DNA of 64,000 nt from Chitinophagales bacterium. GTDB lineage: Bacteria; Bacteroidota; Bacteroidia; Chitinophagales; Saprospiraceae. Below the pieces are notes generated by a model. It worked only from the letters and a program-made list of their open reading frames with translations. It had not been told where the DNA came from and did not search any database. Of this stretch, positions 7,601 to 38,320 are shown in pieces. The translations under genes were made by a program, and so were the position numbers. Numbering within the stretch: position 1 is the first letter of the stretch; every line of letters begins with the position of its first letter. Location: assembly GCA_017303475.1 (NCBI GenBank), contig JAFLBO010000016.1:1-64000 (forward strand), read 5' to 3'.

Positions 7601-7703
7601 CCCGAGTACTCGGGGTGGACGGTGGACGGTGGACGGTGGACGGTGGACGGTGGACGGTGGACGGTGGACGGTGGACGGTGGACGGTGGACGGTGGACGGT
7701 GGA
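7601..7703. repeat. GGTGGAC heptanucleotide array with adjacent palindrome
   Basis: Twelve perfect GGTGGAC units (7614-7697) plus six bases of a thirteenth. Immediately before is the perfect 14-bp palindrome CCCGAGTACTCGGG (7601-7614). The array follows the stop codon of the arginase-fold gene. A second array of the same heptamer lies at 9459-9587. Because seven is not a multiple of three, every reading frame gives the same seven-residue repeat, so apparent ORFs here are artefacts. Confidence 0.95.
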
Positions 7704-8476: not shown

Positions 8477-9463
8477 ATGAGACCGATCTTCTTACTTTTA
8501 TTCTCTTTTGCAGCCTTAACGGTTCAAGCCCAGAACGCTTTATTTTTTCAGGAACAATTGGTGGTAACGGCTAACTCTCTGAATCTCCGCGAAGCGCCTG
8601 ATGCCAATTCAAAAAAAGTTGCCAGCTTAACCCAGGGGACTTTGTTGCAATTTCTGGAAGCCTGGAATGATGGTCAATACACCCAAATTGACACCACCGA
8701 CGAAAACTCCCCGATGGGCAGGTGGCTGAAAGTGCGCACGAAAAATCACACAGGTTGGGTATTTGATGTATATGTGAGCGGCACCACAGAGTTGTATTAC
8801 GAAAACGTGCCTCAATTTGACATGAAGTCAATTGCGCCTCTTTTCTGGTATGGAGTGTACGCCAGGGATTCCTTTTCAGATGAAATCAGAAAGGTGCAGG
8901 TGAGACTGGCGGAAGAAATGAATCCATTCTATGGGGCCAATGTAAAAATGCTCAAAACAAACCAAAAGGAGCCAAGTAAGTTCCTCATTGCCAGTCATAC
9001 CCCGCTTACAACTGGCTACTGCGGTCCACTTGGCGTATTCGACCCCGATCAGATGTTTTTCACCAAAGCTCTGGGACCAGGCACCCAACTTTCTATTTAT
9101 CCCGGGAACGACATGAACGATACCATTGTCAAGCCTTCATATGGCCTGGCAGCCACGGGATGTGCCCGATTTGAAGAGAATTTCGTGCGTATTTTTGATT
9201 ATCAGCTCACCTTGCTGGATTATATGGCAGAACCCATGGCTACACAGGACTTAACGCCCTGGGTTAGAACGGAATTCCCGGAAACAAACCCTTCTGTAGA
9301 CCTGCTTTGGTTTGGAGATCTTGACCACGACAACAAACCTGATGCTATTATCCAGGATTGCCCTTATGAAGTAGGTTGCCGAGCCTCCCTTTTTCTGTCT
9401 TCTAAAGCCAGGCAAGGGGAATATCTCAGGAAAGTGTGTGAATACTATTGGCCTGAGGGGTAG
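8477..9463 (+). CDS. Exported SH3-domain protein
   Basis: A 328-residue protein with a signal peptide (MRPIFLLLFSFAALTVQAQ), then a bacterial SH3 (SH3b) domain at about residues 28-95: VTANSLNLREAPDANSKKV, TQGTLLQFLE, GRWLKVRTKNHTGWVFDVYV. SH3b domains usually bind peptidoglycan or act as protein modules. The C-terminal 220 residues are not recognised; they contain a calcium-loop-like DLDHDNKPDA near 280 and several Cys (YCGPLG, GCARF, CPYEVGC). It is probably periplasmic. The stop codon TAG (9461-9463) lies inside the first unit of the heptad array at 9459-9587, so repeat changes there could alter the C-terminus. Confidence 0.8.
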   Translation: MRPIFLLLFSFAALTVQAQNALFFQEQLVVTANSLNLREAPDANSKKVASLTQGTLLQFLEAWNDGQYTQIDTTDENSPMGRWLKVRTKNHTGWVFDVYVSGTTELYYENVPQFDMKSIAPLFWYGVYARDSFSDEIRKVQVRLAEEMNPFYGANVKMLKTNQKEPSKFLIASHTPLTTGYCGPLGVFDPDQMFFTKALGPGTQLSIYPGNDMNDTIVKPSYGLAATGCARFEENFVRIFDYQLTLLDYMAEPMATQDLTPWVRTEFPETNPSVDLLWFGDLDHDNKPDAIIQDCPYEVGCRASLFLSSKARQGEYLRKVCEYYWPEG

Positions 9464-9587
9464 ACGGTGGACGGTAGACGGTGGACGGTGGACGGTGGAC
9501 GGTAGACGGTAGACGGTGGACGGTAGACGGTGGACGGTAGACGGTGGACGGTGGACGGTGGACGGTGGACGGTGGACGGTGGACGGT
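9459..9587. repeat. Second heptanucleotide array, GGTAGAC/GGTGGAC
   Basis: Eighteen heptamer units, a mix of GGTAGAC and GGTGGAC, plus GGT. It begins within the last codons of the SH3 gene and supplies its TAG stop. The orientation is the same as the array at 7614-7703. The rest of the gap to 9721 is AT-rich and presumably holds the promoter of the PLP-enzyme gene. Confidence 0.95.
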
Positions 9588-35894: not shown

Positions 35895-36124
35895 GTGTTT
35901 GAGCGTGGGAGTGTTTGAGTTGGCGTTCGGTTTGATATTTTGTAAGGCTTACGCCTTTACGAAAAGTTTAAAGCTAATGTAATGCCGACACCGCCTCCCA
36001 CTAAATCCTGGTTGTTGGATCACCGCCCTCCTCTTTCCTCTACCCAAATCGAGCACCAACTAAAACACCAAAACACTAAAACACCAAAACACCAAAACAC
36101 TAAAAACCCAAAAACTCAAAAACA
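35895..36124. repeat. Dispersed core element and ACACCAAAA/ACACTAAAA array
   Basis: Just after glmS is GAGTGTTTGAG twice, then the core GAGTTGGCGTTCGGTTT (about 35919-35936), the complement of AAACCGAACGCCAACT. Further right, 36059-36124 is a G-poor array of AAAACACCA/AAAACACTA units ending 6 bases before the next ATG. The middle part shows nothing recognisable. This fills the 236-bp gap. Confidence 0.8.
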
Positions 36125-36130
36125 GACAAT

Positions 36131-36838
36131 ATGAACAACCTAGATATAGAATACAATACCGAACGACCTGGCATCCGGTTTCCGGAATACGGACGTTCCA
36201 TTCAGGAAATGATTCAGCATGCCATCACGCTGGAATCGCCTCAAAAACGGCAAAAAACAGTGGAGTCAATCGTAGGCCTGATGATTCAGCTTGGACCGCA
36301 GGGCAACCGGAACATGGATGATTACCGCGAAAAACTGTGGAATCACGTGTTCGCGCTGGCTAATTATGAACTCGACGTAACACCACCTCCAGGTATTGTG
36401 ATCCGTCGGGAAGAAGATCGCCCCAAGCCGGAGCCACTGGGATACCTGAATTCAGCCACCCGCATGAGGCACTACGGCAATAGCGTACATGCGCTGATTC
36501 AAAAAGCCATTGAGATGCCTGATGGCCCTAAAAAAGAAGGTTTTGTAGAGGTAATTGCCTCCTATATGAAGCTGGCGTACAAGACCTGGAATAAAGAACA
36601 CTATGTGAGCGATGATATCGTGAAAGAAGACCTGGAAATCCTTTCTGACGGCCAGCTTTCACTGCATGAAGGTCACGATTCTTTAGATAAACTGGCTGCG
36701 GGCGCTGGCAAACTCGACAACCGCAACAGAACCAATAATGGAGGCAACGGCGGCGGTGGGCGCAGGCGTGGCGGCAGAAACCGTGGCGGCGGTCAACGCA
36801 ATTCCGGCGGCAATAATTCCCGGCGGAGAAAACGCTAA
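36131..36838 (+). CDS. DUF4290 family protein with Arg/Gly-rich tail
   Basis: A 235-residue cytoplasmic protein of the DUF4290 family, conserved across Bacteroidota. The conserved domain spans about residues 1-180 (LDIEYNTERPGIRFPEYGR, ESIVGLMIQLGPQGNRN, LWNHVFALANYELDV). The C-terminal 50 residues are low complexity (RRRGGRNRGGGQRNSGG), like RGG RNA-binding tails, so nucleic-acid binding is plausible but unproven. The family function is unknown. Its leader is a G-poor repeat array. The next gene has a separate promoter. Confidence 0.88.
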   Translation: MNNLDIEYNTERPGIRFPEYGRSIQEMIQHAITLESPQKRQKTVESIVGLMIQLGPQGNRNMDDYREKLWNHVFALANYELDVTPPPGIVIRREEDRPKPEPLGYLNSATRMRHYGNSVHALIQKAIEMPDGPKKEGFVEVIASYMKLAYKTWNKEHYVSDDIVKEDLEILSDGQLSLHEGHDSLDKLAAGAGKLDNRNRTNNGGNGGGGRRRGGRNRGGGQRNSGGNNSRRRKR

Positions 36839-36912: not shown

Positions 36913-36946
36913 TTTGATGCGCTTTTAAAAAAGGAACATACCTTTG
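36913..36946 (+). promoter_or_regulatory. Bacteroidota-type promoter
   Basis: TTTG at 36913-36916 and TACCTTTG at 36939-36946, spaced 22 bases, match the -33/-7 consensus well. A start site near 36952 is expected, about 140 bases before the next ATG. Confidence 0.65.
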
Positions 36947-36952
36947 CCTCAA

Positions 36953-37074
36953 TGTATATTCTGTTGAATATCCTGCAAGAAAATATAGCCAACAGGCTTT
37001 AAGATAAAGGTTTAAAATGAAGCGTGTTTTGATGACGTCCTTCTCCGAAAACGTTCGGAGGGGGACTTTTTTTT
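36953..37074 (+). ncRNA. Candidate short RNA or attenuated leader
   Basis: About 120 bases bounded by a strong promoter (36913-36946) and a strong intrinsic terminator (37037-37074), with no conserved ORF between. An ATG at 37018 opens a 30-codon frame (MKRVLMTSFSENVRR...) across the terminator, which could be a leader peptide. The region could encode a free small RNA or be the attenuator leader of the RsmB-type methyltransferase gene that starts 20 bases after the T-run. I could not match it to a known RNA family. Confidence 0.4.
37037..37074 (+). terminator. Strong intrinsic terminator or attenuator
   Basis: A 13-bp stem (37037-37049 with 37054-37066, two G-U pairs) around the tetraloop AACG is followed by eight Ts. 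It lies upstream of the start codon at 37094. Confidence 0.85.
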
Positions 37075-37093
37075 ATCCCCCTACCCTACCCCC

Positions 37094-38320
37094 ATGCACC
37101 CACTGTTAGTCCGAATTGTTGCACAAAACCTCCAGCAGATCTTCCTGGAGAACCGCCATGCCGATAAAGTCATTGAACATGCCTTGCGTGCACACCCCAA
37201 AGCTGGCAGTCGTGACCGCGCTTTCATTGCCGAAACCACCTATGAAGTGTTGCGTTATTTCCGCTTATATCAGGAAATTCTGGGCAGGGAACCTAAATCA
37301 GAATGGGATTTCTGGCAATTAATAGGTGTGCATTTAGCCTTAAAAAACACCGAATTGCCTGCCTGGCGGGAATTTGAAGCCCTCAAAACATCTGAATTTA
37401 CTACCAATATACAAGCCTGGAAAAACAGGCTCAGCCAACCGGATGCCATAGCCAGAGATATCAGGGAAAGTATTCCCACCTGGCTGGATAATCTCGGACA
37501 TCAGGAACTCCCCGATCAATGGCAAGCCACCCTGCATGCTTTAAATCAACCCGCATCCGTGGTGCTCAGAGCCAACCGATTGCGCACCTCTCAGCAGGAA
37601 TTGCTGCAGGCATTGCAACGCGAATCCATCGAGGCTCAACCTATGCCTAATACAGACGCATTGGTACTTAAAGCCAGAAAAAATGTATTTCAAAGCACTG
37701 TTTTCAAAAAAGGCTGGTTTGAAGTGCAGGATTTTAGCAGTCAGAAAGTGGCCCCCTTCCTGGCGCCCGAACCCGGCATGCGGGTGGTGGACGCCTGCGC
37801 TGGTGGTGGTGGCAAAACCCTTCACCTGGCAGCCATGATGCAAAATAAAGGCTCCATTATTGCCCTCGATACCCACGCCTGGAAACTGGACGAACTCAAA
37901 AAAAGAGCCCGAAGAGCCGGCGCCAACAACATTGAAACCCGCCCCATCGAAAGTAAAAAAACCATCAAACGACTCTACAATACTGCCGACCGACTTCTGC
38001 TTGATGTACCTTGCAGCGGGCTTGGCGTGCTGCGCAGAAACCCGGATGCCAAGTGGAAACTCCAACCAGAACAAATAATCCAGCTCCGACAAACCCAACA
38101 GGAAATTTTGCAATCCTACGCACCAATTACCAAACCCGGCGGACGAATGGTATATGCAACTTGCAGTATTTTACCCTCAGAAAATCAGGAGCAAGTGCAG
38201 ACCTTCCTTCAAAGTCAGGTTGGACAGGATTTCACCCTGATCTCAGATCAGAAAATTCTACCACAAGATGAAGGGTTCGATGGATTTTACATGGCTCTTC
38301 TGGAACGAAAACCCCAGTAA
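37094..38320 (+). CDS. RsmB/NOP-family RNA (cytosine-C5) methyltransferase
   Basis: A 408-residue SAM-dependent RNA m5C methyltransferase. The N-terminal NusB-like helical region (about 1-140) is followed by the catalytic domain: SAM motif DACAGGGGKTLHLAAMM, motif IV DVPCSGLGVLRRNPDAKWK with the Cys that releases product, and motif VI YATCSILPSENQEQV with the catalytic Cys. Substrate is most likely 16S rRNA C967 or another rRNA site. Cytoplasmic. Expression may be controlled by the terminator at 37037-37074, directly upstream. The next gene follows after 75 bases. Confidence 0.92.
   Translation: MHPLLVRIVAQNLQQIFLENRHADKVIEHALRAHPKAGSRDRAFIAETTYEVLRYFRLYQEILGREPKSEWDFWQLIGVHLALKNTELPAWREFEALKTSEFTTNIQAWKNRLSQPDAIARDIRESIPTWLDNLGHQELPDQWQATLHALNQPASVVLRANRLRTSQQELLQALQRESIEAQPMPNTDALVLKARKNVFQSTVFKKGWFEVQDFSSQKVAPFLAPEPGMRVVDACAGGGGKTLHLAAMMQNKGSIIALDTHAWKLDELKKRARRAGANNIETRPIESKKTIKRLYNTADRLLLDVPCSGLGVLRRNPDAKWKLQPEQIIQLRQTQQEILQSYAPITKPGGRMVYATCSILPSENQEQVQTFLQSQVGQDFTLISDQKILPQDEGFDGFYMALLERKPQ

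Follow-up and report, generated by a model that had tools for sequence, protein, structure and literature searches.

A putative small RNA with a long invariant core and exchanged terminator scaffolds in one genus of Saprospiraceae

The intergenic interval between a DUF4290 gene and an RsmB-type methyltransferase gene, in a 64,000-nucleotide stretch of a Chitinophagales bacterium contig (the whole stretch analysed, here called the window), is probably a stand-alone small RNA gene of about 120 nt whose core serves as an extended seed for pairing in trans. Transcription would start just 3' of the TTTG/TACCTTTG promoter and would stop at a hairpin and a run of eight Ts ending at 37074, and the RNA body would consist of a variable 5' part, a near-invariant 18-nt segment and the terminator hairpin. 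The same 15-nt core is carried by several further predicted short RNAs of the genus, which have unrelated terminators (B1, B2, E and others). On sequence grounds these RNAs are a new small-RNA family, of an ordinary kind as such genes go, with an unusual long invariant core and exchanged scaffolds. An initial annotation had called the interval a small RNA or an attenuator; the former part is supported, as promoter, invariant segment and covarying terminator travel together through many genomes and varied loci, and the attenuator finds no support as the role that is conserved.

Table 1. Position and basis of the features of the interval and its flanking genes (window coordinates).
Feature	Positions	Strand	Basis
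Gene upstream, DUF4290	36131-36838	+	Pfam PF14123, E 1.7e-53
Bacteroidota-type promoter TTTG-N22-TACCTTTG (boxes 36913-36916 and 36939-36946, spacer 22 nt)	36913-36946	+	sequence; TAnnTTTG at the equivalent place in relatives
5' part of the predicted RNA, variable, with a presumed start site	36952-37000	+	0.14 bits/position; weak fold
Box AAGATAAAGGTTTAAA, class A, partly kept	37001-37016	+	0.82 bits/position, alignment A1
Ultraconserved segment ATGAAGCGTGTTTTGATG, proposed base-pairing seed	37017-37034	+	1.99 bits/position
15-nt core GAAGCGTGTTTTGAT within ATGAAGCGTGTTTTGATG	37019-37033	+	55 exact copies in the genus
30-codon frame beginning MKRVLM (stop 37107-37109)	37017-37109	+	judged accidental
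Intrinsic terminator: 13-bp stem (arms 37037-37049/37054-37066), 4-nt loop, T8 (37067-37074)	37037-37074	+	fold, covariation
Gene downstream, RsmB/F-type 16S rRNA methyltransferase	37094-38320	+	Pfam PF01189, E 1.9e-49

The promoter and terminator at 36913-37074 are genuine, and both lie where the initial annotation had placed them (Table 1). The promoter was compared with the Bacteroidota consensus as it is quoted in PMC7366714. Of the 31 distinct class A copies (class A being the element type seen in the window), 28 have TAnnTTTG 28-92 nt before the seed, at 30-84 nt from the core segment, compared with 2/31, 0/31 and 1/31 in three control windows farther upstream. The terminator has the most pairs of 15 terminator-like sites between 32000 and 42000, a total that does not exceed the shuffle mean of 13.6, so the terminator scan is by itself no proof. 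The predicted window RNA folds better than its shuffles (z = -3.5; none of 200 equally good), mostly because of the terminator. It is the conservation, together with the recurrence of the promoter, that places the element beyond chance. Consistent with a trans-encoded small RNA, the element has its own promoter and intrinsic terminator, holds no conserved open reading frame, and is independent of any one downstream gene.

The block 37001-37074 is conserved within one GTDB genus of Saprospiraceae. A 201-bp segment around the element has matches at E 0.01 or better in 34 of 60 relatives, frequently away from RsmB; the long matches (78-96% identity) cover approximately query positions 100-175 and end at the T run, while the weakest are of 20 bases. 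With up to one mismatch, the 18-mer ATGAAGCGTGTTTTGATG is present in 32 of the 60 relatives, all from the window's GTDB genus, and in 6 of 395 genomes sampled across the phylum, namely the window's own genome and five single-mismatch matches that look like chance. Among genomes of 84,980 species, 61 stretches contain the exact 18-mer. Those that resemble the small RNA are nearly all titled Saprospiraceae, Saprospirales, Lewinellaceae, Bacteroidetes or Bacteroidota, with one labelled Thermoanaerobaculia; the remainder lie in other contexts, for example in Pigmentiphaga. The exact 15-mer GAAGCGTGTTTTGAT has 55 copies in 37 of the 42 genomes of the genus, the other five having no exact copy, and its reversed pattern has none.

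All 55 contexts were inspected, and a hairpin and T run follow the core in 48 (31 of class A, 5 of B1, 6 of B2, 4 of E, and 1 each of F and G). A decayed B2 copy (G025:C34) and a copy that has no T run (G014:C71) do not have a proper terminator, and five of the 55 copies are in contexts that are not like those of a small RNA. A further class E copy, L204, has a core shorter by one base at the end, and covariance searching adds an F-like copy, L485, with one change. Across the 31 distinct class A copies, from which the bits per position in Table 1 were obtained, the stem arms reach 1.67 and 1.49 and the sequence beyond the T run 0.15. The 13-bp stem, which the initial annotation had proposed with its eight Ts, is paired in 99.2% of class A cells and covaries, with 36 double-change cells against a shuffle mean of 12.2 (none of 500 shuffles reaches this value).

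The terminators of classes A, B1, B2, E, F and G form several mutually unrelated contexts. TAnnTTTG lies no more than 20 nt before the core segment in all 11 class B copies, the controls for classes A and B giving 0-2, and the distance is 5 nt in five copies of class E; classes F and G have no TAnnTTTG promoter at the core. Some of the RNAs outside class A place the core at their extreme 5' end. Neighbours vary as well: class E adjoins ribosomal protein S16; B1 is flanked on one side by a Wzz-like protein and on the other by MeaB or a protein judged GNAT-like by eye; B2 is flanked by LpxB and by a protein bearing a T9SS sorting tail. Class A copies in a second group of genomes are flanked by Era and a dihydroorotase-like amidohydrolase, both of which are encoded on the other strand. 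The five genomes with B1 (G006, G016, G027, G030 and G034) lack a class A core copy, B1 is absent from class A genomes, and the two types have nothing in common except the core. Such mutual exclusion is expected if the core alone matters and the scaffolds are interchangeable. The comparison of classes demonstrates, at the level of sequence, that what is kept is the core, and neither the terminator nor the neighbouring gene. Since these 15 bases are constant while the rest varies, they probably locate the putative targets.

A covariance model built from class A (R1) has matches at E 0.01 in 88 of 398 genomes of the family, 27 of them of the same genus, and its strong matches are within the genus; in four genomes of the genus R1 has no listed match. 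The weak matches in other genera (best E 4.6e-6) were rejected as members, as those inspected mostly have a different core, CGGTTTTTGGGATGG. A second conserved pre-terminator element, in which a CTCTC hairpin and a T run come after the core (A)AATCGGTTTTTGGGATGG, was observed at L463-L484 and L487-L489, in other Saprospiraceae genera apart from L489, which is in the window's genus. It often lies 13-81 nt past the stop codon of a gene whose product has a T9SS-like C-terminal tail, and L471 and L488 have several copies of a close variant.

Two related contigs of approximately 38 kb from IMG/VR, whose viral status is that database's label, carry the exact 18-mer with a terminator on the minus strand (L156:1368-1443 and L159:204-278). 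In both, the 18-mer lies between the stop codon of a 327-aa frame and the terminator, and R1, whose alignment includes neither, scores them at 43.0 and 39.0 bits. The other three of the five IMG/VR hits to the 18-mer (L155, L157 and L158) have no terminator and were rejected, as was L490, a copy within a coding frame. Five of the proteins of L156 and L159 gave no PHROG match, and of five compared with Pfam one matched, a caspase-like peptidase (PF00656) in L159; comparing L156 with phage records gave no match. It is conceivable, if rather doubtful, that the 15 nt form a genus-wide RNA "address" that moves among terminator scaffolds unrelated to one another, and that a mobile or viral element has acquired it as well. 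If true, such an element would steer host mRNAs with the host's own regulatory word.

Readings of the interval tied to its own locus were weighed against the varied positions and forms of the element. A cis-acting attenuator or leader that governs RsmB through read-through draws on the window's subclade, where the T run ends just before RsmB (10 of 30 RsmB loci) and the gap to the RsmB ATG, 19 bases in the window, is too short for another promoter. An attenuator would be expected at a constant position upstream of the gene that it regulates; here, however, the element is absent at the other 20 RsmB loci, elsewhere it is antisense to both neighbours, and the single fold of the full RNA showed no alternative antiterminator pairing. 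We regard this reading as very improbable for the family, although within the window's own subclade some read-through control of RsmB could still occur. The initial annotation had also suggested that a 30-codon frame crosses the hairpin as a leader peptide might, and had put its start at 37018, one base past the actual ATG at 37017. A short conserved peptide beginning MKRVLM, whether leader peptide or small protein, would explain why 41 of the 42 distinct copies in classes A and B open with ATG AAG CGT GTT TTG ATG. A peptide under selection would keep its start and frame while accumulating synonymous changes, whereas these six codons have no synonymous change anywhere, the ATG is AAG in one class A copy (L078), no ATG is present at the core in classes E, F and G, and frame lengths range over 12-88 codons for class A and over 8-12 for class B. 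As neither start codon nor frame length is preserved, the peptide reading is rejected as scarcely credible.

Two further explanations concern the core itself. It could be a signal at the transcript end, belonging to an extended terminator or to a 3' processing signal, and not a regulator in trans. In favour, an intrinsic terminator lies directly 3' of 48 of the 55 copies, the similar core CGGTTTTTGGGATGG precedes terminators behind secreted-protein genes in other genera, and both IMG/VR contigs have the core behind a gene. In classes B and E, however, a promoter immediately precedes the core, so that there is no upstream gene to terminate, and we consider this explanation improbable. The core could alternatively be the site of an RNA-binding protein, the RNAs acting as sponges or scaffolds with no antisense regulation, and absolute conservation over 15-18 nt without established targets suits such a site as well as it suits a seed. 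CsrB binds a protein, and the sponges known so far have a short motif repeated many times, whereas each RNA here has a single copy of the core. Multi-copy RNAs such as CsrB are described in PMC6262261. A protein site is unlikely on balance, though less so than a transcript-end signal.

For the preferred reading, a seed acting in trans, the core would base-pair with mRNAs, most likely near translation starts, and would repress them. With one mismatch allowed, 250 sites of the antisense 14-mer TCAAAACACGCTTC were counted across 42 genomes, a number that includes the small RNA copies themselves, compared with 79 for the reversed pattern. A test of start regions covered 23 genomes, with G018:C210 and G018:C213 left out, seven loci that bear the small RNA dropped and three duplicate contexts merged. 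Sites fell in sense translation-start regions in 12 of 116 cases against 6 of 79 for the reversed control (Fisher p 0.62), and sites at starts in the antisense orientation numbered two in the test and two in the control. The test does not separate the sites from the control, so target pairing is putative. This result counts against the preferred reading, as do the core copies outside small-RNA-like contexts or with no proper terminator and the five genus genomes that have no exact copy. The candidate target at L212:1962-1975, in genome G014, pairs perfectly over 16 nt, flanks included, with the core variant of the same genome, which ends in GATC; it is 43 nt from the ATG of a lipoprotein-like gene, within the 5' UTR. 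The G014 copy that is the source of this variant (L071) has no T run. Further candidate sites are L208, L267 and L268, all in G026.

A/C-rich short tandem octamers were seen between genes at 36062-36113 and in other arrays. This AAAACACC repeat before DUF4290 was tried as a target and rejected: the repeat is present in L001 (the window's own genome), L010 (G017) and L108, but L012, L013, L014 and L122 have other sequence there. Perfect or near-perfect 7-bp tandem arrays of GGTGGAC, possibly phase-variable, are found at 7614-7703 and 9459-9587.

In the 64-kb window nothing reaches the gathering threshold of an Rfam 15 family, the best match below threshold being PyrR (24.9 bits, 54 needed), and a search of the open-access literature turned up no paper that deals with small RNAs in Saprospiraceae, co-mentions being incidental by title. 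The role of the core as a seed is suggested by likeness to GibS and Yfr1. GibS of Bacteroides thetaiotaomicron is likewise an intergenic small RNA of Bacteroidota with a long, highly conserved seed directed at translation starts; its single-stranded 5' seed acts on two mRNA starts (passages on GibS in PMC7366714). Against a seed role for the present core, isolated folds leave it only in part unpaired, with means of 0.44-0.75 in six short RNAs of the family, and in the window RNA too the core is partly paired. GibS differs in its length of 145 nt and its promoter type, an exchanged-terminator family is not among the features described in those passages of PMC7366714, and the likeness is one of description. 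Yfr1 of cyanobacteria shares an ultraconserved short unpaired stretch, there between two stem-loops, but belongs to a different phylum, with RNAs of 54-69 nt and the core ACUCCUCACAC, according to PMC2190773; that core was not found here, where the core is GAAGCGUGUUUUGAU. The sibling small RNAs of Neisseria and LhrC of Listeria are similar in having several related copies per genome, as outlined in PMC5362039 and PMC13350326, whereas the copies described here have only about 15 nt in common and unrelated terminators. A long invariant seed on differing RNA bodies would amount to a natural mutational experiment on what selection keeps in a small RNA, and its length agrees with the suggestion, made in a passage of PMC7366714, that some small RNAs of Bacteroidota require longer seeds.
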